Assembly: GCA_029907205.1 (NCBI GenBank)
Contig: JARYMI010000001.1
Location: 124,001 to 188,000 of the forward strand
Direction of reading: 5' to 3'
DNA length: 64,000 bases
From: Clostridiales bacterium
GTDB lineage: Bacteria; Acidobacteriota; Aminicenantia; Aminicenantales; UBA8522
Positions within the stretch are counted from its first letter, which is position 1. Every line of letters begins with the position of its first letter. The notes beneath the pieces are model-generated. The model was not told the DNA's origin, did not search any database, and was given only the letters and a program-made list of their open reading frames with translations. The position numbers and the translations under genes are program-made. This document shows, one piece after another, positions 39,114 through 57,100 of the stretch.

Positions 39114-39146
39114 CAAAAGGTGGTGGCACATTGATCGGGAGTTGGA

Positions 39147-39152
39147 TATAAT
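39147..39152 (+). promoter_or_regulatory. possible internal -10 before mvhD
   Basis: TATAAT in the 89-base gap between the HdrA chimera and mvhD, the longest gap inside the cluster. No convincing -35 lies 16-18 bases upstream. An internal promoter for mvhDGA is possible. Confidence 0.3.
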
Positions 39153-39202
39153 ATAGCGTTTATTTCTTTGATTTTCGAATTCATAAGATAAGGAGGCTCT
39201 GG

Positions 39203-39649: not shown

Positions 39650-40610
39650 GGTTGCTTTTTACTGGTGCTCCTCGTGCGGCGGCTGCGAGGAATCTATTGT
39701 TGACCTGGCTGAAGATATCCTCAAAGTCGTCGCCGCCGTGGACATCGTTTTCTGGCCTGTCGCCCTCGACTTCAAGAAGAAGGATGTCGAGGCCATGCCC
39801 GACGGCTCCATCGCCGTGAGCTTCATCAACGGCGCCGTCAGGCTGAGCGAGCAGGAAGAGATGGTCAAGCTCCTTCGCCGGAAATCCCAGCTTGTCGTCG
39901 CCCACGGGGCCTGCTCTCATCTTGGAGGAATTCCCGGGCTGGGGAATTTCTGGAACAAGGAGACGATCTTCCGGCGCGCCTATCACACGACGCCTTCCAC
40001 ACAGAACCCGGACAAAATCGTCCCCCTGGAGAAAACGGTCCTTGACGGAAAGGAGCTCACCCTGCCCAGGTTTTTTGACACGGTGTATGCTCTCAACCAG
40101 GTTATCGACGTCGATTATTACCTGCCCGGCTGCGCGCCGCCCAGGGATCTCATCCTCAGCGCCGTAGGCGCCATTTTAGAGGGAAAGCTTCCGGCCAAAG
40201 GAGCCGTCCTCTCGCCCAACAAGTCTCTCTGCGACGATTGCGACCGCAACGACAGCAAGCCAGAAAAATTGGTCATCAAGGAGATCAAGCGTCCCTGGGA
40301 AATCATGTTAGACCCAGAAAAATGCTTCCTTGCCCAGGGAGTCATCTGCATGGGACCGGCCACCCGGACAGGCTGCAACGAGCGCTGCATAGAGGCGAAC
40401 ATGCCTTGCCGGGGTTGTTTCGGCCCCACCGACCAGGTCCATGACCAGGGCGCCAAGTTCCTCTCAGCCCTGGCTTCGATCTTAGACACGAACGACGAAA
40501 AGGAAATCGACAAGATCGTCCAGTCCATATCCGACCCTGCAGGAACCTTCTACCGCTTCAGCCTGCCCACATCTATCCTGCAGCGAAGACGCATGGAGGC
40601 CATAAAATGA
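39630..40610 (+). CDS. mvhG: [NiFe] hydrogenase small subunit, MvhG-like
   Basis: A 326-residue small subunit carrying the Fe-S relay from the NiFe site. Cysteine motifs are WCSSCGGCEESIVD (proximal cluster), AHGACSHLGGIPG, PGCAPPRD, CDDCDRN and the C-terminal CMGPATRTGCNERC with CRGCFGPTD. It lacks a twin-arginine signal, so it is cytoplasmic, as in group 3c hydrogenases. It overlaps mvhA by 4 bases. Confidence 0.93.
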   Translation: MSNAKPKVAFYWCSSCGGCEESIVDLAEDILKVVAAVDIVFWPVALDFKKKDVEAMPDGSIAVSFINGAVRLSEQEEMVKLLRRKSQLVVAHGACSHLGGIPGLGNFWNKETIFRRAYHTTPSTQNPDKIVPLEKTVLDGKELTLPRFFDTVYALNQVIDVDYYLPGCAPPRDLILSAVGAILEGKLPAKGAVLSPNKSLCDDCDRNDSKPEKLVIKEIKRPWEIMLDPEKCFLAQGVICMGPATRTGCNERCIEANMPCRGCFGPTDQVHDQGAKFLSALASILDTNDEKEIDKIVQSISDPAGTFYRFSLPTSILQRRRMEAIK

Positions 40611-42067
40611 CTCAACGAATAACCATTGACCCGATCACCAGACTCGAAGGCCACGGCAAAATCGAGATATTTCTCGACGACAAGGGAAATGTCGACCGGG
40701 CCATCCTCCAGGTCCCGGAGCTCAGAGGTTTCGAACAATTCGCCGTGGGCAGGCCGGTGGAGGAGATGCCACGGATCACGCCCCGCATTTGCGGCGTCTG
40801 CCCGACCGCCCACCACATGGCCTCGACCAAGGCTGTCGACGCCGTTTTCCACGTTGAGCCAACTCCAACAGCCCGCAAAATCAGGGAACTCATCTACAAC
40901 ACATTTATGATGGAAGACCACACACTCCACTTTTTCTTCCTGGGCGGGCCGGATTTTGTCGTCGGGCCTCAGGCGCCGGCCGCCGAGCGGAACATCCTTG
41001 GCGTCATCGGCAAGGTCGGCCTCGAGATCGGCGGCAAAGTCATCCGCGTACGACGCGAGTGCCGGGACATCATCAACTACCTGGCCGGAAAAGTTATTCA
41101 TCCTGTCTGCGGGCTCCCGGGAGGCGTCTCCAAGGGGCTGGACGAAGAACACCGGCTGCAATTCTTAGAAACGGCCAAATTCGCTGTCGAATTCGCCCAA
41201 TTCGCCCTCCAGATTTTTGACGATGTCGTCCTGAAGAATAAGGAGTATGTCAGCCTCGTCGTCGGCGACGCTTATAAAATCAAGACGTACTATATGGGCC
41301 TTGTCGATGATAAGAACAAGGTCAATTTCTACGACGGAGCCGTGCGCGTTGTCACGCCGGAAGGGAAAGAGTTCGCTAGATTCCGGCCGCATGAATACTT
41401 GGAGCACATCGCCGAGCACGTCGAGCCGTGGAGTTACATCAAATTCCCGTTTTTGAAAAAAGTCGGATGGAAGGGCTTTACCGAGGGTTCGGACTCGGGC
41501 GTTTACAGGGTTGCCCCGCTGGCCCGGTTGAACGCTTCAGACGGCATGGCCACTCCACTGGCTCATAAGGAGCACGACCGGATGTACGAGACGCTCGGCG
41601 GGAAACCTGTTCATAACACCTTAGCTTTTCACTGGGCCCGCCTGATTGAAGCTCTCCAGGCTGCAGAAGCCATGGTCATGCTGCTCGAGGACAAATCCAT
41701 CACCGATACCAATATCCGCACCATCCCCACCCAGACGCCAACCAAGGGCGTGGGCATCGTCGAAGCGCCGCGTGGAACGCTCATCCACCACTACAAGACC
41801 GACGAGAAGGGAATCGTTGAGGAGGCCAACCTGATCGTGGCCACGGTGAATAACGCTGCGGCCATCAACATGTCCATCGAAAAGGCGGCCAAGGCGTTCA
41901 TCAAGAACGGAAAAGTCTCGGAGGGCCTGCTGAACTTAGCTGAAATGGCCTTCCGGCCCTACGACCCCTGCCATGCCTGCGGAACGCATGCCCTTCCCGG
42001 TGACATGCCCTTGGTCATTAACATTTATGATCGAAACGGAGAGCTCGTCCAGCAACTCAAAAGATGA
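40607..42067 (+). CDS. mvhA: [NiFe] hydrogenase large subunit, MvhA-like (group 3c type)
   Basis: A 486-residue catalytic subunit. The two NiFe-binding cysteine pairs are intact: RITPRICGVCPTAHH near residue 60 and PYDPCHACGTH near 455. The N-terminal RITIDPITRLEGHGKIEI is the standard large-subunit start. About 25 residues follow the last histidine (ALPGDMPLVINIYDRNGELV), as in bacterial MvhA proteins. It oxidises H2 and passes electrons through MvhG and MvhD to the Hdr flavin. Group placement rests on the MvhDG and Hdr neighbours. It ends the cluster; degenerate palindromes follow. Confidence 0.95.
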   Translation: MTQRITIDPITRLEGHGKIEIFLDDKGNVDRAILQVPELRGFEQFAVGRPVEEMPRITPRICGVCPTAHHMASTKAVDAVFHVEPTPTARKIRELIYNTFMMEDHTLHFFFLGGPDFVVGPQAPAAERNILGVIGKVGLEIGGKVIRVRRECRDIINYLAGKVIHPVCGLPGGVSKGLDEEHRLQFLETAKFAVEFAQFALQIFDDVVLKNKEYVSLVVGDAYKIKTYYMGLVDDKNKVNFYDGAVRVVTPEGKEFARFRPHEYLEHIAEHVEPWSYIKFPFLKKVGWKGFTEGSDSGVYRVAPLARLNASDGMATPLAHKEHDRMYETLGGKPVHNTLAFHWARLIEALQAAEAMVMLLEDKSITDTNIRTIPTQTPTKGVGIVEAPRGTLIHHYKTDEKGIVEEANLIVATVNNAAAINMSIEKAAKAFIKNGKVSEGLLNLAEMAFRPYDPCHACGTHALPGDMPLVINIYDRNGELVQQLKR

Positions 42068-42186: not shown

Positions 42187-44169
42187 ATGCATCCTCCTCA
42201 CTTTTCCCTGCGAACAAAGCTCATCCTCAGCTTCCTGGTGGTCATTGTCATCGGCGGCCTGATTTCGCTTTTCTTCGGCCAGCGCTTGGTCAAGAACGTC
42301 CTCATTTCTCAAGCTCAGGCCAAGGTCAACCATGACCTGGCCTCTGCCTGGATGGTCTTCAACGAAAAGCTCAATGACATCAAGGATATTGTCAGCCTGA
42401 CGGCTTCCCGGGAAAGCCTCCATGAAGCCATCCGCAACAACCGGACAGACATCCTCCTCCGCTACCTGAACCGGGTCAGGAACGAGTACGGCTTGGACAT
42501 TCTAACTCTTACAGATAGCCGGGGTCGGGTCATTATAAGGACGAGGAACCCGGAGGTGGAAGGGGATGACCAGTCCGGGGACGAAATCGTCAGCTGGGCT
42601 CTCCAGCCCAACGTCATCGCCTATCCTCAGATTGTTCCAAAGAGCGAGCTCCTTAAGGAAGGTAAGGATCTGGCTGAGAGAGCCTACATGGAGTTTATCC
42701 CTACTCCCAAGGCGGCACCGCGGCCCGAAGACAAGGAAACAAGCGGCCTCATGCTCAAGGCAGCGGCCTCGGTCATCGACGAGAAAGATGATCTCCTGGG
42801 CGTTCTCTATGGCGGCATCCTCCTCAACCGGAACTACGAGATCGTTGACCGGGTCAAGGAAATCGTCTTCAAGGAAGAAAAGTATAAGGGAGTGGAGACG
42901 GGAACGGCGACGATCTTCCAGGGAGACCTGCGGATTTCCACAAACGTCACCGATGCCCAGGGCCAGCGGGCCATCGGTACGCGCATCTCCGAGGAAGTGA
43001 AGAAAGCCGTTCTCGATGAGGCCGAGTCCTGGAACGACCGGGCGTTTGTGGTCAAGGACTGGTACATCACGGCCTACGAGCCGATCAAGAATATCAAGAA
43101 TGAGATTATCGGAATCCTCTATGTAGGAACGCTGGAAAAGCCATACATCGATATCGCCAACCGGGTCATGCTGACCTTTACCATTCTGGCTTCCCTTTGT
43201 GTGATCTTTCTCTTAATAATGCTCTATTTCTCGACGACGAAGATCATCAAGCCGCTCCAGCGCATGGTCGTCGCCACCCAAGAGATTGCCAAGGGAGATC
43301 TCGGTCATAAAGTGGAAATCCAATCGGCTGACGAGGTCGGCTATCTTGCCGCTTCCTTCAATCAGATGACCGAGAAGCTCAAAGCCGCCAACGAAGAGCT
43401 TATAGAATGGGGCAGGACGCTCGAGAAAAAAGTCCAGGAACGGACGAGGGAGCTTACGGAAATGCAGGCCTCCCTCGTCCAGTCTGAAAAACTGGCCTCC
43501 CTGGGCAAGCTGGCAGCTGGCATCGCCCACGAGATCAACAATCCGCTGGGAGGGATCCTCATCTACAGCCATCTCCTCCTTGAAGAGTCCAAGGCAAACA
43601 GCAACCTGGCTGAAACTCTGAAAAAAATCATCAAAGAAACGTCCCGCTGCAAAAACATCGTCAAGGGGCTGCTGGAGTTCGCCCGGCCAAAAGAGCCGGA
43701 GATGGTGCTGACCGACCTCAACGAGGTCGTCAACAAAGCCCTGGCTATTTTTGAACGCCAGGCCCTCTTTCAAAACATCACAATTGAGAAAGATTTCTCC
43801 GACCTTCCCCGAATCGTGGCAGACGGGCCCCAGCTCCAGCAGGTTTTCGCCAACATCATCATCAACGCCGCCGAGGCCATGAACGGAAACGGCCTGCTCG
43901 CCATCAAAACGCTCCTGGACGCAAGAACCGACACTCTGAGAATCGAGTTCAGAGACACGGGACACGGAATCAAGGAAGAGGACCTGCCCCGTCTCTTCGA
44001 GCCTTTCTTCACCACCAAGGAAGTGGGGAAAGGAACTGGCTTGGGCCTGGCCATCAGCTACGGCATCGTCCAAAAACACAATGGGTCTATCGAGGTGAAG
44101 AGTGAAGTCGGGCGGGGCTCCACGTTTACAGTCGTGTTGCCGCTGATTAAGGAAGCGCCAAATGAATGA
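42187..44169 (+). CDS. membrane sensor histidine kinase (extracytoplasmic sensor, HAMP)
   Basis: A 660-residue kinase. Membrane segments are at about residues 12-33 (LILSFLVVIVIGGLISLFFG) and 323-345 (FTILASLCVIFLLIMLYFS), bounding a ~290-residue extracytoplasmic sensor of Cache type (DILTLTDSRGRVIIRT). A HAMP linker (KIIKPLQRMVVATQEIAKGD), coiled coil, and HisKA with phospho-His in LAAGIAHEINNPLGGIL (about residue 447) follow. The HATPase domain has N box NIIINAAEAMN, G1 DTGHGIKEEDL and G2 GKGTGLGLAISYG. It overlaps by 8 bases the NtrC-type regulator that follows, its evident partner. Placement between the two hydrogenase operons suggests control of hydrogenase genes. Confidence 0.93.
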   Translation: MHPPHFSLRTKLILSFLVVIVIGGLISLFFGQRLVKNVLISQAQAKVNHDLASAWMVFNEKLNDIKDIVSLTASRESLHEAIRNNRTDILLRYLNRVRNEYGLDILTLTDSRGRVIIRTRNPEVEGDDQSGDEIVSWALQPNVIAYPQIVPKSELLKEGKDLAERAYMEFIPTPKAAPRPEDKETSGLMLKAAASVIDEKDDLLGVLYGGILLNRNYEIVDRVKEIVFKEEKYKGVETGTATIFQGDLRISTNVTDAQGQRAIGTRISEEVKKAVLDEAESWNDRAFVVKDWYITAYEPIKNIKNEIIGILYVGTLEKPYIDIANRVMLTFTILASLCVIFLLIMLYFSTTKIIKPLQRMVVATQEIAKGDLGHKVEIQSADEVGYLAASFNQMTEKLKAANEELIEWGRTLEKKVQERTRELTEMQASLVQSEKLASLGKLAAGIAHEINNPLGGILIYSHLLLEESKANSNLAETLKKIIKETSRCKNIVKGLLEFARPKEPEMVLTDLNEVVNKALAIFERQALFQNITIEKDFSDLPRIVADGPQLQQVFANIIINAAEAMNGNGLLAIKTLLDARTDTLRIEFRDTGHGIKEEDLPRLFEPFFTTKEVGKGTGLGLAISYGIVQKHNGSIEVKSEVGRGSTFTVVLPLIKEAPNE

Positions 44170-45514
44170 GCCCGCCAACATCCTGATCATCGACGACGAA
44201 GAATCCATGCGAGATTCCATGAGCCAGGTTCTCCGTAAGGAAGGCTACGCCGTCAAGGGAGCGGTTGAAGGAAAAGAAGGGCTGAACCTCTTTAGCCGGG
44301 AAACCTTCCACGTTGTCTTCCTCGACCTTAAGTTGCCGGGCATCAAGGGGATGGAGGTGCTCAGCCGGATCAAGGACACCAGCCCGGAAACGCCGGTCAT
44401 CATCATTACCGGCTACGCCTCGATCGAATCGGCTGTTGAAGCGATGAAGCAGGGCGCATTCGACTACATGGCCAAGCCCTTTACTCCTGAGGAGCTGCGG
44501 GTCGTCACTAAGAGAGCCTTAGACGGCCGGAGACTTCTTTTTGAAAACATGTATCTCCGCCGAGAGCTCGAGGCCAAGACCGAATTCGAGATGGTCATAG
44601 GGAAGAGCAAAGTCATGCGCGACGTGCTCGAGATTGTCAGGCGCGTCAGCCCTACCGAGAGCACGGTCCTCGTCACCGGAGAGAGCGGCACGGGAAAGGA
44701 GCTCATCGCACGGGAAATTCATCTCCACAGCTTGAGACGACAGGCCCCTTTCGTGGTCGTCGACTGCGGGGCCCTGGTCGAGACGCTCTTCGAATCCGAG
44801 CTTTTCGGGCACGTCAAAGGGTCGTTCACCGGAGCCCACGAGACCAAACACGGCCGGTTCGAAGTGGCTGACGGAGGCACAATTTTCTTCGACGAGATCA
44901 GCAACATCGGGCTCAACATCCAGGCCAAGCTGTTGCGGGTCATCCAGGAAAGGGAGATCACCCGGATCGGGTCGAGCAAGCCGATCAAAGTTGACGTCCG
45001 GATCCTGGCCGCAACCAATGAAGACCTGGCTGAGGCCGTCAGAAAGGGGAAATTCAGGGAAGACCTCTTCTACAGGCTGAGCGTCGTCCCGATCCATCTG
45101 CCAACCCTACGGGAAAGAAAGGAAGACATCCCTCTTCTGGTCGAGCATTTTTTGCGCAAATACAATAAAAAGGCCAAGAAAAATATCGAAGGCGTTTCCC
45201 CTCGCGCCATCAGAGCGCTGACCGAGTACGACTGGCCTGGAAACATCCGAGAGCTTGAGAACACGATCGAAAGGGCTGTCGTTTTATCCAAGACAAACGG
45301 CATTGACGTGGAGGACCTCATGTATCACGGGATCAGCGCCTCGACAGGCCTGGCGGGCTCAGCTGGCGGAAAATACAAAACCCTCGAAGAAATGGAAAAA
45401 GAGCACATCAAGGCTGTCCTCCAGTCACAGTTCGGAAACAAGAGCCGGGCCGCTGAGGTGCTGGGGATTGACCGAAAAACTCTCTGGGCCAAGATCAAAA
45501 AGTACAAGATCTAA
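44162..45514 (+). CDS. NtrC-family sigma-54 activator
   Basis: A 450-residue response regulator with three domains. The receiver has DDEESMRDS, phospho-acceptor Asp in VVFLDLKLPG and Lys in AKPFTPEEL. The AAA+ domain has Walker A GESGTGKELIAREIH, the sigma-54-contacting loop GSFTGAHE (a GAFTGA variant with Ser), Walker B GGTIFFDEI, and DVRILAATNEDL. The C-terminal Fis-type helix-turn-helix is NKSRAAEVLGIDRKTLWAKI. It binds upstream elements and drives sigma-54 RNA polymerase when phosphorylated. The next gene, hydB, has a sigma-54 promoter and a candidate upstream site. Confidence 0.96.
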   Translation: MNEPANILIIDDEESMRDSMSQVLRKEGYAVKGAVEGKEGLNLFSRETFHVVFLDLKLPGIKGMEVLSRIKDTSPETPVIIITGYASIESAVEAMKQGAFDYMAKPFTPEELRVVTKRALDGRRLLFENMYLRRELEAKTEFEMVIGKSKVMRDVLEIVRRVSPTESTVLVTGESGTGKELIAREIHLHSLRRQAPFVVVDCGALVETLFESELFGHVKGSFTGAHETKHGRFEVADGGTIFFDEISNIGLNIQAKLLRVIQEREITRIGSSKPIKVDVRILAATNEDLAEAVRKGKFREDLFYRLSVVPIHLPTLRERKEDIPLLVEHFLRKYNKKAKKNIEGVSPRAIRALTEYDWPGNIRELENTIERAVVLSKTNGIDVEDLMYHGISASTGLAGSAGGKYKTLEEMEKEHIKAVLQSQFGNKSRAAEVLGIDRKTLWAKIKKYKI

Positions 45515-45813: not shown

Positions 45814-46872
45814 ATGAGGATATTAAAACTCCAAAAAAACTGCCTTTTCCCCTTCCTTGAAGCGATCTCCAAGGAGGCAGAGCTATGGGCGCCCGTCGCC
45901 AAGGGGGACAAGTTCGCCTTCGACCGCGTCGCCGACTTCTCGCGGATCGCCATGAATGCAACCCGCACGATCATCCCGGCCAAAAAAATCATGGTCCCTG
46001 CCAACTTCAACATGTTTCATTTTACTGAAAAAGGGTACAAGGAGGACCTCTCTCATGTCACCGACAGAATCCTGTTCGGCGTTCATGCCTGCGACATTCA
46101 TGGCCTTTTGACCTTGGACAAGATCTTTACCCAGGTCTATCCCGACCCTTATTATCTCGAGCCCAGGAAAAGGACGATGATTCTCGGGCTGTCCTGCTGG
46201 CCTGACGAGCACTGCTTCTGCAAGTCAACCCATACCCACATCGTCGAGGAAGGCTACGATCTTTTCTTTACTAATTTGGAGTCCTGTTTCCTCGTCTGGA
46301 TTGGCTCCAGCCGCGGCGACGACCTCATCCGGCTGGTTCCCGACCTTTTCGACGAGAACCTGACTGAGAAAGACATCAAGACGTACATCCAATGGCAGGC
46401 CGAAAGAGATAACGCTTTCAAAACAGAAATCCAGTTTGTCCGCCTGCCCGACCTGATGGAGCTCAACTACCGCGCGCCTTTCTGGGAAGAGCTCGGCGCC
46501 GCCTGCCTGGCCTGCGGTTCCTGCACCATGGTTTGCCCGACTTGCAACTGTTACAATGTCATGGATAAGCAGTTCCTGGGCGAAAAACCCGGCCAACGCA
46601 TCCGCCACTGGGATTCCTGCACTCTTCCCGAGTATTCTGAGGTGGCGGGCGGAGAAAACTTCAGGGAGAAAAAGTTCCAGCGTCTCAAACTCTGGTACAC
46701 ACATAAACTCCAGGCGTACGTCTCCAAGTACGGCAAGCCGAGCTGCGTCGGCTGTGGCCGTTGCCTGGTAACGTGCCCGGTCCAGATAAACGTCAAGACG
46801 GTGGCCGCGGCCCTCGAAGGGCAGGAGCCGGAGGCATTCTGGAAAAACCTGGCCAAGGAGGCAACAAGATGA
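45814..46872 (+). CDS. hydB: group 3b hydrogenase beta subunit (Fe-S)
   Basis: A 352-residue HydB/sulfhydrogenase-beta-type protein with two [4Fe-4S] sites near the C-terminus: CLACGSCTMVCPTCNCY (about residue 231) and CVGCGRCLVTCP (about 311). An earlier region has FGVHACDIHGLL and SCWPDEHCFCKS. It carries electrons between the flavin subunit HydG and the hydrogenase pair HydDA. It is the first gene of hydBGDA, overlapping hydG by 4 bases (ATGA). Confidence 0.93.
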   Translation: MRILKLQKNCLFPFLEAISKEAELWAPVAKGDKFAFDRVADFSRIAMNATRTIIPAKKIMVPANFNMFHFTEKGYKEDLSHVTDRILFGVHACDIHGLLTLDKIFTQVYPDPYYLEPRKRTMILGLSCWPDEHCFCKSTHTHIVEEGYDLFFTNLESCFLVWIGSSRGDDLIRLVPDLFDENLTEKDIKTYIQWQAERDNAFKTEIQFVRLPDLMELNYRAPFWEELGAACLACGSCTMVCPTCNCYNVMDKQFLGEKPGQRIRHWDSCTLPEYSEVAGGENFREKKFQRLKLWYTHKLQAYVSKYGKPSCVGCGRCLVTCPVQINVKTVAAALEGQEPEAFWKNLAKEATR

Positions 46873-47729
46873 ACGTTCAAGATAAATCTCCTGCGGAAGC
46901 CAAGCCTTTCAAACCCGAGCCAGCCCGGATTGTCCGCACCTATCATCTGACCGAGGACGTCAAATTCTTTCAGGTCCGATTCGTCGATATGCAAAAAGCT
47001 CTGTCCTTCAATTATAAGCCAGGGCAGTTTGCCATGATCTCAGTCTTGGGGGCCGGAGAGGCTCCTTTCTCAATTTCTTCCACGCCTTCCCGGCCAGGCC
47101 TTCTTGAGTTCTGCATCCGCAGAGCCGGGACCGTTACCAACGCCCTCTTTCGCCTGAAAGAGAACTCGCTCATCGGACTTCGCGGTCCCTACGGCAACGG
47201 TTTTCCGGTCGAGGCGATGACAGGCAAGGACATCCTCATCGTCGTCGGCGGGCTGGGGGCTGCCCCTCTGCGCTCTGTCCTGCTCTATAGCCTTGATAAC
47301 CGCGACCAGTTCGGGCGGGTGGCCGTCCTCTACGGCGCCAAAAGGCCGGCCGAGATGATCTTCAGGGAGGAATATTTTTCTCTGAAACAGAGGAGCGACC
47401 TCGAATGTCATTTAGCTGTAGACGCAGACGATACCGGGAAATGGACGGAGAGAGTCGGCGTGGTGACCACGCTTTTCCCCCATCTTAGGCAAATAGACGC
47501 GCCCAACACCTATGCTCTCGTCTGCGGCCCGCCCGTGATGTATAAATTCGTCATCAAGGAACTGGTCAAGCTCGCCATCCCCAAGAACCAGATCCTGATG
47601 ACGCTCGAGCGGCGGATGAAATGCGGGGTGGGCAAGTGCGGTCACTGCGCCATCGATTACATCTACACATGCCTCGACGGCCCTGTTTTTACCTACTGGG
47701 ATGTCATCCACATGAGGGAGCTTATTTAG
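46869..47729 (+). CDS. hydG: group 3b hydrogenase gamma subunit (FAD/NAD(P)H)
   Basis: A 286-residue ferredoxin-NADP+-reductase-like protein. The FAD site includes GEAPFSISSTPS and RAGTVTNALF; the nucleotide site includes IVVGGLGAAPLRS and LVCGPPVMYKF; the C-terminal [2Fe-2S] site is MKCGVGKCGHC with a later Cys in YTCLDGP. It exchanges electrons with NAD(P)H. ATG 46869 is preceded by AGGAGG; a longer frame starting at 46761 lies inside hydB. Confidence 0.94.
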   Translation: MNVQDKSPAEAKPFKPEPARIVRTYHLTEDVKFFQVRFVDMQKALSFNYKPGQFAMISVLGAGEAPFSISSTPSRPGLLEFCIRRAGTVTNALFRLKENSLIGLRGPYGNGFPVEAMTGKDILIVVGGLGAAPLRSVLLYSLDNRDQFGRVAVLYGAKRPAEMIFREEYFSLKQRSDLECHLAVDADDTGKWTERVGVVTTLFPHLRQIDAPNTYALVCGPPVMYKFVIKELVKLAIPKNQILMTLERRMKCGVGKCGHCAIDYIYTCLDGPVFTYWDVIHMRELI

Positions 47730-47739
47730 GGAGGAGACG

Positions 47740-48522
47740 ATGGAAAAAGAAAAGTTGAAAATCGGGATCTACGAGCTCACCGGCTGCGCCGGCGACGCCC
47801 TCCTCATCGTCGACTGCGAAGAGGAGCTCATGAACATCTTCAAGGCCGCCGACATCGAATCCTTCCTCATGGCCAAAAGCGATAACCGAAACGGCGAGCT
47901 CGACGTGGCTCTGGTGGAGGGCTCGGTCAGCACGGAAAAAGAAAAAGAAGAGCTCCTGGATATCAGAAGAAGGTCCAAGGTCGTCGTGGCCATCGGCAAC
48001 TGCGCCTGTGTCGGCGGGATCCAGGCGGCCTTCCTGGACAAGAAAGACTGGGAGAAGAACTTCAAGAAAGTCTACGGGACCATCGCCTTCACCCACACCA
48101 AGCCTGCCCAGAGCAAGCCGATCGACGCGTACATCCGCGTCGATCATTACCTTCCCGGCTGCCCTATCGGCAAAGAGCAGTTTCTATCGACTTTCGCCCG
48201 GATGGTCGGCGGAAACCCGCCGGAGCTTTACCGCTTCCCCGTCTGCGTCGAGTGCAAATGGCATGAAAACGACTGTCTTCTCAACAAAGATATCCCCTGT
48301 CTGGGGCCTTTGACATTGGCCGGCTGCGGGTCCGTTTGTCCGGATCATAACATTCCCTGCTTTGGCTGTTGGGGCCCGACTGAGGAAGCCAATTTGACTT
48401 CCGAATACCATCTTCTCCTCGATAAAGGCTTCGACCTGGAAATGATCAAGAAAAGAATGGCCAACTACTCGGGGACGAGGATTGCCGAGTTCTTCGCGCA
48501 ATTCAGAAAGGAGAAAAGATGA
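47740..48522 (+). CDS. hydD: group 3b hydrogenase delta (small) subunit
   Basis: A 260-residue [NiFe]-hydrogenase small subunit without an export signal. Cluster ligands are seen in YELTGCAGDALLIVDCEEE, AIGNCACVGGIQAAF, YLPGCPIGKEQ and the three-cluster C-terminal part CVECKWHENDC, CLGPLTLAGCGSVCP and IPCFGCWGPTEE. It relays electrons from HydA to HydB/HydG. It overlaps hydA by 4 bases. Confidence 0.93.
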   Translation: MEKEKLKIGIYELTGCAGDALLIVDCEEELMNIFKAADIESFLMAKSDNRNGELDVALVEGSVSTEKEKEELLDIRRRSKVVVAIGNCACVGGIQAAFLDKKDWEKNFKKVYGTIAFTHTKPAQSKPIDAYIRVDHYLPGCPIGKEQFLSTFARMVGGNPPELYRFPVCVECKWHENDCLLNKDIPCLGPLTLAGCGSVCPDHNIPCFGCWGPTEEANLTSEYHLLLDKGFDLEMIKKRMANYSGTRIAEFFAQFRKEKR

Positions 48523-50255
48523 AGACGATCAGCATCGACCATCTCGCCCGCGTTGAAGGCAATGGCGGCATCTCCGCCACCATCGATGGCCGCGTCGTCA
48601 CCGAAGTCAAGTTCACTGTCAACGAAGGACCGAGACTCATCGAGCGCCTGACGGTCGGCAAGACGCCCGAAGAGGACGTCAGCATCGCTCCCCGGATATG
48701 CGCCATCTGCACTCTTTCGCATAAAAATGCCGTCCTTCGCGCGATGGAGAACGCTTTGGGTGTCAAGGTTCCGGCCAAAGTGACTCTCCTCCGTGAGCTC
48801 ATGCACATGGGCGAGTTCATCGAAAGCCATTCCCTCCATGTCTTCTACCTCGCTCTTCCTGATTATGTAGATTTCCCTAACGCTATCGCCATGGCCTCAA
48901 AATTTCCGTTCGAGGTCAAGATTGCCCTGGAAATGAAGCAGTTCGGCAATCACATCATGAAAGTCTTGAGCGGCCGTTACATCCACGGCGAAAACCCGGT
49001 CATCGGAGGGTTCGGAAAGTACCCCAGCCGGGATGAGCTCATCTGGATTAAAAACCGGGCCGTCCAGTTTATGCCTTTTGTCTTCAGGACTGTAGACCTC
49101 TTCTGCGGGCTTGAGTATCCGACCATCCCCGAAGAGGAGACGGTCTATGCCTGCTGCGAGCCGGGAGACGGAAAATATGGACTCTGGGGAGACGAGATCA
49201 TTCTTTCGACCGGGGAGAAAATTGCCCGGGATGACTACAAGCGCTTGACCAACGAGTTTTTCGTCCCGCATTCCTTCTGCAAGCGCAGCCGGTACAAAGG
49301 AAACACGTATTCTGTGGGCGCTCTTGCCCGAGTCAATGTCCTGGGCGAGAGGCTCGAGGATGAAGCAGGCAAGATGTTCAAGAAATATTTCAACGCCCGC
49401 TGGAAGAAGAATCCTCTCTATCATAACGCCGCTCAGGCCCTGGAAATCCTCTACGCTTTTGAAAGAATCCCTGAGTTGGCAGATGAAGTCCTTCGGCACC
49501 CTGAGGACCCCGCCTTGGTTCCGTACAAGTCCAAGAACGGGAAGGGGACAGGGCTGGTGGAGGCTCCGCGGGGCCTCCTGATCCATCATTATGAAATAAC
49601 CGACGGCGTCGTTGCCAACGTCGACATCATCACCCCGACCGCCCAGAACGCGGAAGAGATCGAAAGGTACTGCTACATTGCAGCCCAGAAGCTTTTAGAC
49701 GAGGGACAGGAGGATAAGATCAGGGACAGGATGGATCTTGTCGTCCGGGCGTTTGACCCGTGTATCAGCTGTTCAGTCCACATGGCCGAGGTCAAGAAAG
49801 CCCCCGCCCAAGACTGGAAAACGAAATTGGCCAGATTGCTCAAGGCTAATCCCGTGTTTATCGGCGTCGGAAAAGAGGGCCGGTCGGATGACCGGGCCGG
49901 CCTTGAACTGGCCCTGGAAATGAGGAAAGCCGGAGTCAAGGACGTCTACCTGGAAACGGAACTCGATGAGGGCCACATCCTGGAAAGATTTTCGGGACGG
50001 CCTCTCCTTTTCCTCGACATCGCCAACATGGGGGAAAAGCCGGGGAAGATCGCCCTGCTCCCCCTTCAGCACGTCTTCTGGAACTCCGTGCTCAGCCACA
50101 GACTCTTGCCCGGCCTCTCGAACAAACTGACCTACGAGGAGGTCCGGCGGTCTTTCATTCTCGCCATTCAACCTAAATCTGTGGAAGGAGGAGATGAGCT
50201 TTCTCTCCCGGTCCGGCAGGCCATTGACCAAATCCTTAGAGAAACGATAGGTTAA
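48519..50255 (+). CDS. hydA: group 3b hydrogenase alpha (large) subunit fused to a maturation-protease-like domain
   Basis: A 578-residue protein. Residues 1-421 are an ordinary group 3b large subunit: APRICAICTLSHKNA and the C-terminal NiFe motif DPCISCSVH (C415, C418, H421). Normally a few cleavable residues follow this histidine. Here 157 more residues form a domain resembling hydrogenase maturation endopeptidases of the HycI/HybD family: VFIGVGKEGRSDDRAGLEL, PLLFLDIANMGEKPGKIALL, VLSHRLLPGLSNKL and ILAIQPKSVEGGDELS. The three metal-ligand positions of HycI (Asp, Asp, His) correspond to D458, D500 and H527. A separate protease gene lies at 52657. How the precursor is processed is not known; intramolecular cleavage or lost cleavage are both possible. 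Confidence 0.93.
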   Translation: MKTISIDHLARVEGNGGISATIDGRVVTEVKFTVNEGPRLIERLTVGKTPEEDVSIAPRICAICTLSHKNAVLRAMENALGVKVPAKVTLLRELMHMGEFIESHSLHVFYLALPDYVDFPNAIAMASKFPFEVKIALEMKQFGNHIMKVLSGRYIHGENPVIGGFGKYPSRDELIWIKNRAVQFMPFVFRTVDLFCGLEYPTIPEEETVYACCEPGDGKYGLWGDEIILSTGEKIARDDYKRLTNEFFVPHSFCKRSRYKGNTYSVGALARVNVLGERLEDEAGKMFKKYFNARWKKNPLYHNAAQALEILYAFERIPELADEVLRHPEDPALVPYKSKNGKGTGLVEAPRGLLIHHYEITDGVVANVDIITPTAQNAEEIERYCYIAAQKLLDEGQEDKIRDRMDLVVRAFDPCISCSVHMAEVKKAPAQDWKTKLARLLKANPVFIGVGKEGRSDDRAGLELALEMRKAGVKDVYLETELDEGHILERFSGRPLLFLDIANMGEKPGKIALLPLQHVFWNSVLSHRLLPGLSNKLTYEEVRRSFILAIQPKSVEGGDELSLPVRQAIDQILRETIG

Positions 50256-50410: not shown

Positions 50411-50563
50411 GTCATTTTTCCTTGTGATCTTTCCGTCAACATGGTAGAATTCTTTTCTCCGGAAACAGCCGAGGAAATATTGGGACAAGCCTGGGGAATA
50501 ATTCCTCAGGCCGCTGGGCGTCGCGATGCGCAAAAGAGAGAAGGGATGGCTGTTAGCTCTATA

Positions 50564-50579
50564 TTATTTAATATCAATA
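50564..50579 (+). promoter_or_regulatory. candidate enhancer site for the sigma-54 activator (rr-hyp)
   Basis: TTATTTAATATCAATA sits in a longer dyad, TATTATT (50562-50568) and AATAATA (50576-50582), 39 bases before the -24 element. It is 13/16 identical to 45611-45626. The surroundings are very A/T-rich, so chance similarity cannot be excluded. Confidence 0.45.
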
Positions 50580-50616
50580 ATATAAATATTGCACCCGGGC
50601 TACCTCAGCGGCACGT

Positions 50617-50633
50617 TTGGCACACAATTTGCT
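50617..50633 (+). promoter_or_regulatory. sigma-54 (-24/-12) promoter of the response regulator/hyp operon
   Basis: TTGGCACACAATTTGCT is close to a perfect TTGGCAC-N5-TTGCW match, with GG (50619-50620) and GC (50631-50632) 10 bases apart. Transcription would start near 50644, immediately before the GAGGA ribosome-binding site of the GTG-started regulator at 50660. This placement also decides that start codon. Confidence 0.8.
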
Positions 50634-50659
50634 TTACTTCCCCTCCTGAGGAACATGTC

Positions 50660-51031
50660 GTGAACACGGGAGAAAAGAGAATTCTGATCGTCGACCCCGA
50701 TCCCAACCAGAGGCGGGACCTGGCCCAGTTTCTTAAGAATGAAAACTACGACCCCGAAACAGCCAGGAACCTCTCCGAGGCTATCAAGAAAGTCTCCGGG
50801 GGAGGTTTTCGCTGTTTGGTCATGGATACTCATCTTCCCGAGATGAAAGGCTATGAAGCTGTTTCTATCCTCAAGAACCTTGACCCAGGGCTCAAGATTA
50901 TCATGACGACGAAGAAAAACACCAAGCGGCTTGAGGCCAAAGTCCGGGAACAGGACATCTTCTTTTATTTTATCAAGTCCTTCGGCAAAGATGAGCTGAA
51001 GCTTGCCATAAAAAACGCTTTTAATCAGTGA
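50660..51031 (+). CDS. REC-only response regulator 1
   Basis: A 123-residue receiver domain starting VNTGEKRILIVDPDPNQRRD (GTG start). The phospho-acceptor Asp is in FRCLVMDTHLPEMKG; the conserved Lys is in FIKSFGKDEL. The acidic pocket reads DPD. The frame stays open upstream to 50441, but that part would precede the sigma-54 start of transcription, and the GAGGA site fits GTG 50660. No output domain is present, so it acts by protein contact, possibly as a phosphate sink or relay. It is followed 13 bases later by another REC protein. Confidence 0.82.
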   Translation: MNTGEKRILIVDPDPNQRRDLAQFLKNENYDPETARNLSEAIKKVSGGGFRCLVMDTHLPEMKGYEAVSILKNLDPGLKIIMTTKKNTKRLEAKVREQDIFFYFIKSFGKDELKLAIKNAFNQ

Positions 51032-51044
51032 AGGAGGAAAGGTA

Positions 51045-51449
51045 ATGAACAAAAGCACCCAGAAAATCCTGGTCATCGATGACGACCCCGATTTCTTAGC
51101 TGCGGTGACTCCGATCCTGAAATCAGCCCTCTACGAGGTCGTGACGGCTACTAACCCACGGGAGGCAAAGGAAAAGATTTTTTCTGAAAAACCCAACCTC
51201 ATCCTGCTCGACATCATGATGGACAGTCTTTTTGACGGCTTCTCCCTCTGTCACGCCATCAAGACTTCGAAAGAATTTAGAGACTATAAAGATACGCCCA
51301 TCATTTTCGTTTCAGCCGTAAAGGAGATTGCCGGCACCAGGTTCCAGTTCAAGGGCGATGAAGAGGGCATGGCCGGCCCGGATGACTATATCGACAAGCC
51401 GGTCAAGCCCGACGACCTGCTGGCCCGGATCGCCAAGCTCATCAAGTAA
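51045..51449 (+). CDS. REC-only response regulator 2
   Basis: A 134-residue receiver domain: ILVIDDDPDFLAAV (acidic pocket), phospho-acceptor Asp in LILLDIMMDSLFDGFSLC, the Thr/Ser region PIIFVSAVKEI and Lys in DYIDKPVKPDDLL. No DNA-binding or enzyme domain is attached. Its GGAGGAAAGG ribosome-binding site is strong. It lies between REC protein 1 and the REC-kinase protein, so a small phosphorelay is plausible. Confidence 0.87.
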   Translation: MNKSTQKILVIDDDPDFLAAVTPILKSALYEVVTATNPREAKEKIFSEKPNLILLDIMMDSLFDGFSLCHAIKTSKEFRDYKDTPIIFVSAVKEIAGTRFQFKGDEEGMAGPDDYIDKPVKPDDLLARIAKLIK

Positions 51450-51553
51450 TAGAGCTCATCCCCTTCTCCATCTCACTCCCGGAGTTCCCTGGGAAACGTC
51501 TGGGCTGAAATGAATCGCGATTTGCGCTAAAATAGAGCACCAGGAGAAAAGCT

Positions 51554-52660
51554 GTGGCCGAAAAAAAACCGACTGTTCTTGTGATTGACGACGAAGAAGC
51601 CATGAGGGATTCCTGCTCCCTCATCCTGGCCAGGGGCGGATACGCTCCCGTGACCGCCGAGAACGGGGAGGTCGGGCTGGAAAAAATAAGGGAACTCAAG
51701 CCCGAAATCGCCCTGATCGACCTGAAGATGCCGGGCATCAGCGGGTTTGAAGTCCTGGAAAAAACGAAAGATATTGACCCCCAGCTCATCCCCATCGTGA
51801 TTACTGGATACGCGACTGTGGATTCTGCCGTCGAAGCCATGAAAAAGGGCGCTTACGACTTCCTGCCCAAGCCCTTTGCGCCTGAGGAACTCCGCTTGAT
51901 TATCAGCCGGGCTCTGGAAAGGCGCCGGCTGGCTATGGAGGCCGAGACACTGCGCCGCGAAAAGAAGCTTATGGAGGATAATTTCATCACTATGGTCACT
52001 CACCAGCTCCGCAGCCCGCTCGTGGCCATCCAGCAGTACTTCGAGGTCATCCTGGCCGGGCTGGCCGGCCAGGTCGACAAAACCCAGCAGGAGATGATTC
52101 TCCGAGCTCGTGAGAGGTTAGACAACCTCCTCGGGCTGATCAACGACTGGCTGGACCTCGCCAGAATCGACCGGGGCCAGATTGTCGACAAGCTCAAACC
52201 CGTGGCGCTCGACAACCTGCTCAAGAAGCAGGTTGAATTTTTGGCGCCCCTGGCGAAGGAGTATGAGGTGAGCCTGGAACTCAAGCCGGCCAAGGGGCCT
52301 GTGCTGGGCGATGAGCAGATGCTGGACCAGGCCTTCTCTAACATCATCACCAACGCCATTAAGTACAACAAGCCAAAAGGCTCGGTGACCATCTCGATGC
52401 ATCATGAGAACAGCTTCATCGTCGTCAAAGTGGAGGACACGGGGATCGGGATTGCCAGGGAACACCTTCCATTCATCTTCGACCAATTCTACCGCGTCAG
52501 CCGCCGGGAGGACCAGAAAATCAAGGGGACAGGCCTGGGGCTCTCGATCGCCAAAAAAATCGTCGAAGCCCACAACGGCTCCATAGAGGTAGAGAGCGAA
52601 CCAGGTCAAGGCTCCACGTTCAGCGTCAGGCTTCCCCGGTCAGAAGATGAAACAAAATGA
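51554..52660 (+). CDS. hybrid response regulator-histidine kinase
   Basis: A 368-residue cytoplasmic protein with an N-terminal receiver (VIDDEEAMRDSCS, Asp in EIALIDLKMPG, Lys in FLPKPFAPEEL) followed by a kinase core. The HisKA region reads DNFITMVTHQLRSPLVAI with the phospho-His in THQLRSP, and the HATPase domain has NIITNAIKYN, EDTGIGIAREH and GTGLGLSIAKK. The start is GTG 51554 after CAGGAGAAAA. It overlaps the maturation protease gene by 4 bases, tying this signalling group to hydrogenase maturation. The signal is unknown. Confidence 0.9.
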   Translation: MAEKKPTVLVIDDEEAMRDSCSLILARGGYAPVTAENGEVGLEKIRELKPEIALIDLKMPGISGFEVLEKTKDIDPQLIPIVITGYATVDSAVEAMKKGAYDFLPKPFAPEELRLIISRALERRRLAMEAETLRREKKLMEDNFITMVTHQLRSPLVAIQQYFEVILAGLAGQVDKTQQEMILRARERLDNLLGLINDWLDLARIDRGQIVDKLKPVALDNLLKKQVEFLAPLAKEYEVSLELKPAKGPVLGDEQMLDQAFSNIITNAIKYNKPKGSVTISMHHENSFIVVKVEDTGIGIAREHLPFIFDQFYRVSRREDQKIKGTGLGLSIAKKIVEAHNGSIEVESEPGQGSTFSVRLPRSEDETK

Positions 52661-53136
52661 AGACTCTTGTTCTCGGTCTGGGAAACGAGATCTACGGAGA
52701 TGACGGAATCGGCATCCAGGTCATTCGCTATCTCAGGGAGGAAACGACAAAAATGCCGACCGGGGATTTCCAGAATGTTGACCTGGAAGAATGCTCCCTG
52801 TCCGGCCTCGCCCTTTTAGATGTTATCGTCGGCTACGACCGACTTATCCTCATCGACACCATCAAGCGGGAGGCCCCCCAAACGGGAAGAATCCATGTTT
52901 TGAGAGAAAGCGATATCAGAGCCGTTCCCGGCCCCTCTCCCCATTACGTCTCGGTGCCGCAGGCGGTCGAAATCGGACGACGCCTCGGCCTTCATATGCC
53001 CTCGCGTATCCGTGTCGTTGCCGTGGAGGCGAAGAACATCCATTCTCTGGGAGAAAAGCTCTCGCAGGAAATGGAAAAAAACATGCCGGCGATTGCCGAG
53101 AAGGTCAAAGAAGTCTTGAGAAAGGCTGAGGATTAA
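52657..53136 (+). CDS. hydrogenase maturation protease
   Basis: A 159-residue endopeptidase of the HyaD/HybD/HycI family, which removes the C-terminal peptide of a NiFe large subunit after nickel insertion. Metal-site regions are LVLGLGNEIYGDDGIGIQV (Asp16), LILIDTIKRE and SPHYVSVPQ (His). Its substrate could be MvhA or HydA; HydA already carries its own protease-like domain, so MvhA is a good candidate. It lies directly before hypB and hypA. Confidence 0.9.
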   Translation: MKTLVLGLGNEIYGDDGIGIQVIRYLREETTKMPTGDFQNVDLEECSLSGLALLDVIVGYDRLILIDTIKREAPQTGRIHVLRESDIRAVPGPSPHYVSVPQAVEIGRRLGLHMPSRIRVVAVEAKNIHSLGEKLSQEMEKNMPAIAEKVKEVLRKAED

Positions 53137-53139
53137 GAA

Positions 53140-53811
53140 GTGGATAAAAAAGAGGTTCTTGTCCGCGAGGAGATCTTAGGCTCAAACAGGAAAATAGCCG
53201 CCGAAACCCGCGTGAGGCTGGAAAAAGAGGGAATCCTGACCGTCAATTTCCTTAGCTCGCCCGGCGCGGGCAAGACGTCGCTCCTGGAAAGGATCGCCGA
53301 AGCGTTGAAAATGAATCACCGCATGGCTGTCATCGAGGGCGATATCGAAACTGACCTTGACGCCGAGCGAATCCGGAAGAAAGGCGTGCCGGCTTGGCAG
53401 ATCACCACCGGCGGCGCCTGCCACCTCGAGGCCAGGATGGTAGCCAGGCTCATTCCCGAAATTCCACCAGAGACCAAGTTTCTGTTCATCGAAAACGTCG
53501 GCAACCTTGTCTGTCCGGCCAGCTACGACCTGGGAGAAAGCCTGCGCTGTGTGCTCCTCTCGCTCCCCGAGGGAGACGACAAACCAAAGAAATATCCCAA
53601 GGCCTTTGCGACGGCTGACTGCCTCATTTTTACCAAGGCCGACCTGCTGCCTGTCGTTCCCTTCGACCTGAAGAGGGCAGAAAAGGAAGCCCTGGAGATC
53701 AACCCGAAGCTCCGCGTTTTCCTGACCTCCGCCCTCAGGGGAGCGGGCATTGCCGAGCTCGTCCGCTTCTTTATTGAGCGTCGCGTCAACATGATTCAGC
53801 GCCATGCATGA
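53140..53811 (+). CDS. hypB: hydrogenase nickel incorporation GTPase HypB
   Basis: A 223-residue GTPase that delivers nickel to hydrogenase large subunits. The P-loop is SSPGAGKTSLLERI; EGDIETDLDAERIRK, the metal-site GGACHLEARMV, ENVGNLVCPASYDLGE and FTKADLLP complete the signature. No His-rich or CxxCGC N-terminal metal store is present. The start is GTG. It overlaps hypA by 8 bases. HypC, D, E and F are not in the window. Confidence 0.95.
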   Translation: MDKKEVLVREEILGSNRKIAAETRVRLEKEGILTVNFLSSPGAGKTSLLERIAEALKMNHRMAVIEGDIETDLDAERIRKKGVPAWQITTGGACHLEARMVARLIPEIPPETKFLFIENVGNLVCPASYDLGESLRCVLLSLPEGDDKPKKYPKAFATADCLIFTKADLLPVVPFDLKRAEKEALEINPKLRVFLTSALRGAGIAELVRFFIERRVNMIQRHA

Positions 53812-54148
53812 ACTTTCTCTCATCGCCAGCCTGTTCGAAATCCTGGAAGAAAAGGCCCGGGACGAGAGAGCTAAAAAAATCGTCCTGGTCAAGCTGAAGG
53901 TAGGAAAACTGGCTGGCGCCGTCCCCGAGTTTCTCGAAACCGCCTTCAATATTTACAAGGATGGGACAATCGCCAGGGAAGCGATCCTGGAAATCGAGGA
54001 AGTCCCCCTCAAGATTCGCTGCCGCAAATGTCAGGCCATTGCCGAAAGGGATGACTTTGTCTTCGTCTGCCCGGCCTGCGGTTCGACAGACCTTGAGACT
54101 CTCGAAGGAACCGAGCTTCTCCTCGAAAAAATGGACCTGGAGGTCTAA
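53804..54148 (+). CDS. hypA: hydrogenase nickel metallochaperone HypA
   Basis: A 114-residue protein beginning MHELSLIASLF, where Met-His-Glu binds nickel. The zinc site is made of CRKC and CPACGS. It partners with HypB in nickel insertion. Length is standard. Its last 4 bases overlap the 3' end of the minus-strand HdrA gene. Confidence 0.95.
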   Translation: MHELSLIASLFEILEEKARDERAKKIVLVKLKVGKLAGAVPEFLETAFNIYKDGTIAREAILEIEEVPLKIRCRKCQAIAERDDFVFVCPACGSTDLETLEGTELLLEKMDLEV

Positions 54149-57100
54149 CTTCCGAGCAGGCCTTCGATCTCGGCAAAAATCTGCTCGTCACGGAAATGAT
54201 TCTGCTGGGAAGCGGCCGAGGGACAGGCAGCGACACAGGTCCCGCAGCCTTTGCAGAGCGCCTCGTTCACTTTGGAGACGCCTTCATCCTCAGAGAACTT
54301 GATGGCCGTGTAAGGACAGAGGTCGTTGCAGAGCCGGCAGCCGGAGCAGAGCTCCGGGTCGATATAAGCCTGGATGGGCTCGATTTCAATCTCTCCCTTA
54401 GAAATATAGGCCAGAATGCGCGCCGCTGCCGAACTCGCCTGGGCCACGCTGTCCGGTATGTCCTTCGGCCCCTGGCAGCATCCCGCGATATAGATTCCAT
54501 CGGTGGCCGTGGCCGTGGGGTCGAGCTTGGGATGCTTCTCCAGGAAGAACCCATCAGGGCTTCTGCTGATGGAAAAGAGCCGCTGGATGTCGCCGGCGTC
54601 GGGTTGAGGCTCGATGGCGTTGCACAGCACGACCATATCAACAGGGATTTCCCGGTACTTTTTGATCAGCGTGTCTTCGCAGCGGATGAGGAGAGTTCCT
54701 TCCTCTTTCTTGGACCAGCCGGCTTGAACCACCTCGGCCACTTTGCCCCGAATGACATTCACCCCCTCTTCCAGGATCCGGGAATAGAACTCTTCATACC
54801 CCTTGCCAAAGGCTCTCATATCAATGTAGAACTCGTAGACTTCGGCGTTTGTCCTGTCTTTGATGAGATGGGCAAACTTGAGCGCATACATGCAACAGAC
54901 ACGGGAGCAGTAGGGATGATATTTTTCATCCCGAGAGCCGACGCAATGGATGATGCCGATGGCCCTCGGCTCCTGGCCATTTTTCAAGACAATTCTTCCC
55001 TGGGTTGAGCCTGTGGAACTTACTATCCTTTCGAACTCAAGGCTTGTATAGACATTATCAAATTCACCATAGCCGTAAAGGCTGAGGGCTTTGGAATTTA
55101 AAGTCGTGTAGCCTGTGGCCAGGAGGATCTGCCCGACCTTGATCTCCTTGATCTCATCTTTCATGCGATGGTTGATCGCTTTCGGCTCACAAACACGCAC
55201 GCACTCTTGGCATTCAACACAGATGCCGCAATTCAGGCAGCGTTCCGCCTCTTTCATCGCCTCTTCTTCGGTAAAGCCCAACTCCACTTCTTCAAAGGTC
55301 TTGAGCCTTTTCTCCATGGTAATCTCGCTCATCTTCGTCCGTGGCACTTTGGGAGTTTCTTTGAAAGTGGGAGCATAGCGATGAGGACGGAAGCTCTCAT
55401 CCCTCTTCGCAAGCTTCTTCGCCCGGGGACTTGTGAAATCCGCGAGCGGCTCATTGTTGAGGTATTTAGCGATGGCTTCAGCGGCGCGCTTCCCATCGCT
55501 CATGGCCGCGATGACAGTGGCCGGCCCGAGGACAGCATCTCCTCCGGCAAAAACTCCTCTGATGTTTGTCTCCAGCGTCTCGGGGTTGACTTCCAGGGTG
55601 CTCCACTTGGTCACCTTGAGGGGATACTTTTCGCTTATAAAGTCAACAACAGGCGCCTGGCTGACGGCAATGAGCAACGTGTCAAAGCCGAGGTCATGCT
55701 CGCTTCCCTCTACGGGCACCGGCCGCCGCCGGCCGCTCGAATCGGGCTCTCCCAGTTCCATTCGGATGCATCTTACGCCGCTAATTTTTCCTTCTTTTCC
55801 TAAAACCTCCACCGGAGCCACAAGGTATTGAATCCCGACTCCTTCTTCTTCAGCTGCTTGAATTTCTGCTTCCTCGGCGGGCATCTCCTTCCGGGTTCGC
55901 CGATACAAGATGGTCACTTCTTTGGCGCCGCAGCGGAGGGCTGTCCGCGCAGCGTCGATGGCGGTATTTCCGCCTCCCACAACAGCGACTCTCTTTCCCA
56001 CAGGTTGAGGTTTTCCGAGGTTGATATTCCGCAGGAAGTCGACGCCGTGAAAGACGCCTTCCAGGTCTTCTCCCGGAATGGCCATTTTTAAGCTTTTATG
56101 TGCTCCTGTGGCAATATAAATCGCCTTATATCCCTGGTTAAGAAGGTCATCGATGACGAAGTCCTTTCCCAGGGCCACATTCGTTTTGATGGTTACTCCC
56201 ATCTTCTTGATATAATCAATCTCTCGGTTAAGGATTTCCCGCGGCAGACGGTATTCAGGAATGCCCAAAGCCAGCATGCCTCCCGCCACCTCGTGCTTTT
56301 CAAAGATGACGGGAGAATAGCCTCTCAAGGCGAGCTCATGGCCGCAAGCCAGGCCGGACGGCCCCGAGCCGATGATGGCAATCTTCTCTTCCTTTTTCTC
56401 CTCCACCTTCGGAGGTTCGACAAGACCCTTGTTTTTGAGCTCCCAGTCCATGACAAACCGCTTGATGTTTTTTATGGCTAAGGGCACATCGACAAACCGG
56501 CGGTTGCATTCAGACTCGCAGGGATGGTAGCAGACGCGGCCGCAGACGAAGGGCAAAGGGTTATCTCGACGAATGAGGCGAGCCGCTTCAGCGAATTTCC
56601 CTTTTGCAACAAGGGCAATATATCCGGCGGCCTCCTGGCCGATGGGGCAGGTCTCGCCGCAGGGGGGACGCTCTTCCTTATCGATAAGGTAGGTGTTGGG
56701 AACGGCCTGGGGAAAGGTCCTGTAGATGGCGCTCCTTCGAACCTGATTCTCTTCAAATGAGTTGGGAACCTGGATGGGACAGACTTTGGCACATTCCCCG
56801 CAGGCCGTGCATTTTTCGCTGACATACCGAGCCTTTTTTTTCACCTTGACGGTGAAATCGCCGATGAAGCCCTGGACATCCTCGATTTCGCTCAGGCTGA
56901 GGAGCTCGATATGTTCATGCTGGGCGACGGAGACCATCTTGGGAGTGAGGATGCAGGCCGCGCAATCCAGGGTGGGGAAGGTTTTATCGAACTTGGCCAT
57001 CTTGCCGCCGATCGTCGATTCTCGCTCGACAAGATAAACCTTGTTTCCGGAATCGGCGATCTCCAGAGCAGCCTGAATCCCCGCGATTCCACCCCCAACA

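Follow-up and report, generated by a model that had tools for sequence, protein, structure and literature searches.

A [NiFe]-hydrogenase large subunit with a C-terminal HycI-like maturation endopeptidase domain in Candidatus Aminicenantes

Background

In the accepted scheme for the maturation of [NiFe] hydrogenases, a C-terminal extension of the large subunit prevents the active site from closing before nickel has been inserted, after which a nickel-recognising protease removes the extension (PMC12134894). Enzymes of groups 2b, 2d, 4c and 4e mature without C-terminal cleavage (PMC12134894). Maturation proteases bind stably to the large-subunit body and not to its tail (PMC5299533). Complexes of enzyme and substrate are difficult to trap, and for this reason the way in which the protease senses nickel and gains access to the scissile bond has long been an unsettled question. 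In the group 3b hydrogenase SHI of Pyrococcus furiosus, the protease FrxA must remove the residues -VVRL for activity, and the unprocessed form is inactive (PMC2865534).

Here we analyse a locus in a 64,000-nucleotide stretch of DNA (the window) in which a hydrogenase large subunit (HydA) and a predicted maturation protease domain share one reading frame. The locus and P. furiosus SHI have in common a beta-gamma-delta-alpha operon, the motif DPCISCSVH and large-subunit bodies that are 38-40% identical by structure alignment; SHI is cleaved after the His of this motif, a position homologous to the predicted site at H421. Whereas the SHI large subunit has the 4-residue tail VVRL and a separate protease, the tail of the window HydA is 157 residues long and contains the protease. 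This tail shares its fold, whole-domain sequence and Asp/Asp/His ligands with the HycI/HybD endopeptidases (peptidase family A31), but the characterised members of that family are all free-standing, while the fused tail forms the C-terminal domain of the protein on which it presumably acts. Hydrogenases of groups 2b, 2d, 4c and 4e resemble the fused HydA in needing no separate protease for the subunit, but they lack an extension, whereas the fused HydA has both an extension and an intact protease domain. Self-cleaving precursors (Ntn hydrolases, autotransporter and polyprotein proteases) also carry a protease within the chain that is presumably cut; this is an analogy only, and cleavage of the fused HydA would, in contrast, be gated by a metal cofactor bound in the substrate domain.

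The component families are known but their covalent joining appears, to our knowledge, to be undescribed. No account of a covalent fusion between a NiFe large subunit and a maturation endopeptidase was found in the open-access literature (subscription papers and database architecture pages were outside our scope), a 2025 review makes no mention of one (PMC12134894), and the authors of the preliminary description of this DNA likewise knew of no such case.

Organization of the fused gene

The fused gene (48519-50255, + strand, as are all features below unless noted) is a single open reading frame of 578 aa without internal stops, its stop codon ending at 50255. D413 is encoded at 49755 and H421 at 49779, with 157 residues beyond H421; coordinates re-derived from this single frame agree with the tail length and positions given in the preliminary description.

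By sequence comparison, residues 1-421 (48519-49781, through DPCISCSVH) correspond to the large subunit of a group 3b-type [NiFe] hydrogenase. The full-length chain matches the NCBIfam models ShyA (E-value: 1.1e-107) and HydA (3.1e-105) at residues 4-423, both under the equivalog cut-offs, as well as TIGR00072 (8.8e-9) at residues 448-575. The body matches P. furiosus SHI alpha (9nez) in a phmmer search (7.8e-94), and its best Foldseek match is 9nf0 (1.7e-27). Both CxxC motifs of NiFe large subunits are present, RICAIC near the N-terminus and DPCISC near the C-terminus. Within the C-terminal motif (D413-H421, 49755-49781), only the I and V positions vary among fused homologs (DPC[IVLF]SC-x-x-H). 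The operon is also of the group 3b kind, as the fused gene is preceded at 45814-48522 by genes for the beta (Fe-S), gamma and delta subunits: HydB/ShyB (45814-46872; ShyB 1e-85), the FAD/NAD(P)-binding HydG/ShyC (46869-47729, start codon inferred; ShyC 1.3e-79) and the small subunit HydD/ShyD (47740-48522; ShyD 5e-56). A group 3b feature that the window HydA does not have is a C-terminal extension of only a few residues that is removed after the last His; its extension is 157 residues long.

The tail begins with an extension-like stretch of ~6 residues, followed by a helical linker of ~17 residues and then the protease. The predicted processing site, H421/M422 (49779-49784), is homologous to the position at which SHI is cleaved before -VVRL (PMC2865534). 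Residues 422-444 (49782-49850) comprise a putative remnant of a short group 3b extension (MAEVKK) and the linker, with an invariant W433; this reading rests on alignment with unfused tails and on a tail-only model, in which a helix is predicted at tail positions 11-21.

The C-terminal protease domain

Residues 445-578 (49851-50252) form the HycI-like domain according to HMM, profile and predicted fold comparisons. Analysed alone, the window's tail matches TIGR00072 hydrog_prot (5.1e-10; 39.5 bits, cut-off 47.45), TIGR00142 hycI (8.6e-8, under the curated cut-off) and Pfam HycI (6.7e-4; 19.9 bits, cut-off 23). Unlike this tail, most orthologous tails score above the curated family cut-offs, and all 27 homologous tails match both TIGR00072 and TIGR00142 (best 2.9e-19). 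A profile built from the 27 tails and compared with the PDB finds E. coli HycI (2e85, 1.8e-8), Thermococcus kodakarensis HycI (5zby, 2.4e-8) and E. coli HybD (6e-4), the HycI and HybD matches spanning most or all of the protease domain. With the HMM, homolog and PDB profile matches taken together, the similarity is far beyond chance. The tail-only AlphaFold model (pLDDT 83.5, pTM 0.80) gave ten Foldseek matches at E ≤ 0.001, every one a hydrogenase maturation protease, the best being E. coli HycI 2i8l (5.0e-8, TM 0.68).

The putative metal ligands are D458 (in the pair D457-D458, 49887-49892), D500 (50016-50018) and H527 (50097-50099), which we take to correspond to HycI D16, D62 and H90. The D457-D458 pair is invariant in 27 homologs and in A3, and D500 and H527 are likewise invariant in homologs, H527 aligning to the HycI His. 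GxG, DD and GIQP motifs show little or no variation across as many as 27 homologs. Of the features that define family A31, the tail has the whole-domain similarity with an alpha/beta/alpha fold and the Asp, Asp and His residues, which do not vary in complete homologs; it departs from the family in not being a free-standing enzyme, since about 30 genomes encode it as one frame with HydA.

These comparisons of sequence and predicted structure confirm that the 157-residue tail holds a HycI-like hydrogenase maturation endopeptidase domain, while nickel-dependent cleavage by it is inferred. The preliminary description had proposed this resemblance to HycI/HybD, with D458, D500 and H527 kept as ligands, and would have been refuted had the tail matched no maturation protease in sequence or structure; the family HMM search (TIGR00072), PDB profile and Foldseek results all side with it. 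Whether the protease site can reach H421 is unreadable in the full-length AlphaFold model because pLDDT is below 50 at residues 406-423.

Unfused relatives and the short extension

Unfused group 3b relatives in Acidobacteriota have 4-8 removable residues after the last His, or none, as the preliminary description had expected of group 3b HydA; their tails include LVRVRR, MVRVVRRT, LVKVIRK, VVRT, VVRA and LVRV. The first ~6 residues of the fused tail (MAEVKK; LVEVRK, TVQVRR and IVEIKK in relatives) resemble LVRVRR, MVRVVRRT and VVRT. Because the start of the fused tail looks like a short group 3b extension, the cleavage site seems, as far as alignment can tell, to have been retained, with the protease attached downstream of it. 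The earlier suggestion that the cleavable tail had been replaced by the protease thus holds for the presence of the protease but not for a simple replacement.

The closest unfused HydA relative (G159, loci L107/L128; 55% identical) ends in DPCISCSVH followed directly by a stop codon, a natural pre-processed form; this genome has two NiFe large subunits and one protease. Among the relatives, only this HydA is of the tail-less kind found in groups 2b, 2d, 4c and 4e. The phylum shows three states: a short tail with a protease gene, no tail, and the protease as the tail.

Several unfused group 3b relatives have a protease gene directly downstream of the large subunit. In another genome (G417:C21, L095/L122), a hydrogenase large subunit with the tail YLKLTLDKE and a protease lie in the same frame with a single stop codon between them. 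Such arrangements make a fusion through loss of a stop codon easy to picture. The G417 pair itself was rejected as the ancestor of the fusion, its large subunit being only 36% identical.

Distribution, origin and selection

The fused form occurs in about 30 of the 99 related genomes searched, with 62-77% identity over the full length, and the relatives that bear it are labelled Candidatus Aminicenantes. Because the fusion recurs in independent MAGs of many genera and in a single-contig chromosome of 4.43 Mb with two fused copies, a frameshift or an assembly artefact of MAGs was ruled out. The tail was not found as a separate gene in any relative read, and the frames that are broken in relatives (e.g. 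G003, G073 and G075) have their breaks at other places in the gene or close to a contig end, never at the junction. A frameshift or a separate tail gene in close relatives would have spoken against the preliminary description; the relatives carry one frame.

Across 396 genomes of the phylum, all matches to the tail profile above 190 bits are of the fused form and fall in one order (in one, G020, the contig begins inside the gene), while standalone proteases score ≤ 70 bits. A scan of 84,980 species genomes with a single tail as query gave no match. An alignment-based scan returned 26 loci, labelled Aminicenantes or Acidobacteria/Acidobacteriota where named; since it relied on one peptide pattern, independent fusions elsewhere are not excluded. 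Within this scope, the phylogenetic spread, which the preliminary description had proposed to check, is about 30 genomes of one order of Aminicenantes.

In a tree of the body, the fused forms make up one clade (support 84/99, 85% of bootstrap trees), which is consistent with a single fusion event. In a tree of the protease domain, the fused rows cluster with low support, except for one badly extracted row (G321), and the donor of the domain is unresolved. Estimated dN/dS is about 0.2-0.27 for the tail in usable pairs versus about 0.06-0.12 for the body (saturated and too-close pairs were left out, including one near-identical pair too close to judge); by this measure the tail is under purifying selection that is weaker than that on the body.

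Two fused HydA paralogs (L039 and L044) are present in CP070825.1 (G093). In the copy located at 4.03 Mb, the motif is the variant DPCFSCSSH, and this copy has the lowest protease-family score among the fused copies.

Genomic context

The window encodes a standalone HyaD/HupD-type maturation protease (52657-53136; TIGR00072 3e-29, hupD 2.3e-16) in the same cluster, 2.4 kb downstream of the fused HydA, followed by the nickel insertion genes hypB (53140-53811; TIGR00073 1.8e-75) and hypA (53804-54148; TIGR00100 2.9e-26). There is also a second, unfused NiFe large subunit of the VhuA/Mvh type (40607-42067; NCBIfam VhuA 2.4e-130) with an ordinary 25-aa tail past DPCHACGTH, and assignment of the standalone protease to this second hydrogenase fits. 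Its cluster (34644-42067) contains NuoE-like, NuoF-like, ferredoxin/HdrA-like, FlpD, VhuG- and VhuA-like genes, a layout that resembles those of NADH-linked electron-bifurcating [NiFe] hydrogenases such as HydABCSL; 7t2r was also among the Foldseek matches of the HydA body.

A sensor kinase, an NtrC-type regulator, response regulators and a receiver-kinase hybrid are encoded at 42187-45514 and 50441-52660. Their placement between the two hydrogenase operons and the hyp genes suggests that expression of the operons is regulated. Adjoining hypA on the - strand (54145-57549) is a gene for an HdrA-like protein of 1134 aa into which a GltD-type NAD(P)H oxidoreductase module is inserted.

Protease and large subunit gene counts

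Under the counting rule used, every NiFe large subunit with a tail, the fused HydA excepted, should be matched by one standalone protease; weak matches of ~445 residues near 25 bits, which are complex I-like, were left out of the large subunit counts. Standalone proteases equal the other NiFe large subunits in 29 of 32 fused genomes. The remaining three (G003, G015 and G076, all fragmented MAGs) have one extra protease, a surplus that is unexplained, and none has fewer. In five genomes the fused HydA is the sole NiFe large subunit and a standalone protease is absent: G017 (93% complete), G042 (91%), G028 (90%), G067 (83%) and G037 (82%). All five encode HypD, so the NiFe cofactor pathway is present.

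Outside the fused clade, genomes with an unfused HydA that has a tail also encode a protease for it. The sister-class genomes G143, G319 and G444, with a HydA tail of 7-8 aa, have two large subunits and two proteases; G096, G249 and G433 have one of each, and G377 and G426 have three of each. Counts were not exactly balanced in the outgroup genomes G279, G336 and G350, which have many large subunits. Because these counts were made on draft MAGs, the absence of a protease from any single genome could reflect a gap in the assembly. Taken together, the gene counts favour the interpretation that the fused domain stands in for a standalone protease gene.

Proposed maturation mechanism

We consider it likely that the tail works as a nickel-gated endopeptidase and cleaves the large subunit to which it belongs after H421, although cleavage, its site and its occurrence in cis or in trans are all inferred and there are no biochemical data on the mechanism. 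Hyp proteins would build the NiFe(CN)2CO centre in the body while the C-terminal extension holds the active-site cleft open. Nickel in the cleft would then engage the Asp/Asp/His site of the tethered HycI-like domain, which would cut the H421-M422 bond and be released as a fragment of ~17 kDa, a processing enzyme used only once, and the new C-terminus would fold in after cleavage. The docking of maturation proteases on the body of the large subunit (PMC5299533) suits a tethered enzyme. Cleavage in cis, or in cis plus trans, is somewhat favoured over cleavage purely in trans but has not been shown experimentally. For the narrower proposal of nickel-gated self-proteolysis in cis, with protease and substrate supplied 1:1 by a single gene and fixed across the Aminicenantes order, the chances appear to us to be even.

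An active protease might instead work mainly in trans, the attached or released domains cutting other HydA precursors and possibly the other hydrogenase, with the fusion ensuring equal dosage. Known family members cut a substrate that is a separate protein (PMC5299533), and with a linker of only ~23 residues intramolecular reach is not guaranteed. However, wherever a second hydrogenase is encoded, the genome also retains a separate protease for it, which makes broad trans activity unlikely without excluding cleavage between HydA copies; we regard a mainly trans mode as unlikely, though it must be kept in mind. The conserved ligands would also fit a nickel-binding or folding module (a sensor or chaperone) that never cuts, the mature enzyme keeping its tail, and groups 2b, 2d, 4c and 4e show that maturation without C-terminal cleavage is possible (PMC12134894). 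This is improbable in our judgement: fused genomes need no extra protease for HydA, and the closest unfused relative without a HydA protease (G159) lost its tail altogether. The preliminary description had listed self-cleavage in cis, nickel sensing by the fused domain and permanent retention of the tail as outcomes. Of these, the genome counts favour processing of the subunit by its own domain, without distinguishing cis from trans, and permanent retention is disfavoured because unprocessed P. furiosus SHI is inactive (PMC2865534) and one of the SHI alpha structures has a sequence that stops exactly at CSVH.

The standalone protease at 52657-53136 could in principle act on HydA, which is one point against self-processing, beside the scores of the window's tail below the Pfam HycI and TIGR00072 cut-offs, and would leave the fused domain a vestige. 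We find this very hard to reconcile with the five fusion genomes that lack a standalone protease, with the invariant ligands of a tail under purifying selection and with the gene counts, in which other large subunits account for the standalone copies apart from one extra in each of three fragmented genomes. No more credible is internal initiation at ATG 49782 (M422), by which the protease would also, or only, be made as a separate product. ATG is the codon for residue 422 in the window and also in roughly half of the relatives, but no ribosome-binding site is evident just upstream, and in homologs the residue varies (M/L/T/I/S/A), being L, T, I, S or A in many, so that M422 is not a conserved start codon.

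If self-proteolysis in cis is correct, the fused HydA would be the first hydrogenase with a cleaved extension that nevertheless needs no separate endopeptidase. With enzyme and substrate naturally joined 1:1, the protein lends itself to cryo-EM or crystallography, and cleavage in cis could be tested with a single gene. The genes also offer a compact set for producing an NAD(P)-linked hydrogenase with no cognate protease added. The occurrence of three tail states in one phylum allows an evolutionary study of the purpose of the cleavage step.

In-frame TGA codons in other large subunits

Vhu/Mvh-type NiFe large subunits with an in-frame TGA were observed in three genomes of one Acidobacteriota family: L146 (G350:C11:59000-61300), L147 (G279:C59) and L148 (G336:C369). 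The codon is the same in all three (RICGV-TGA-P), at the second Cys of the N-terminal RxCGxC motif. In known [NiFeSe] enzymes, selenocysteine lies in the C-terminal motif. In L146 and L148, where the C-terminal motif is inside the stretch read, it contains only Cys (DPC[LF]SCATH). The position of the TGA suggests that it may encode selenocysteine at an N-terminal NiFe ligand, although data on the selenocysteine machinery are lacking. The hairpins predicted past the TGA differ among the three loci.
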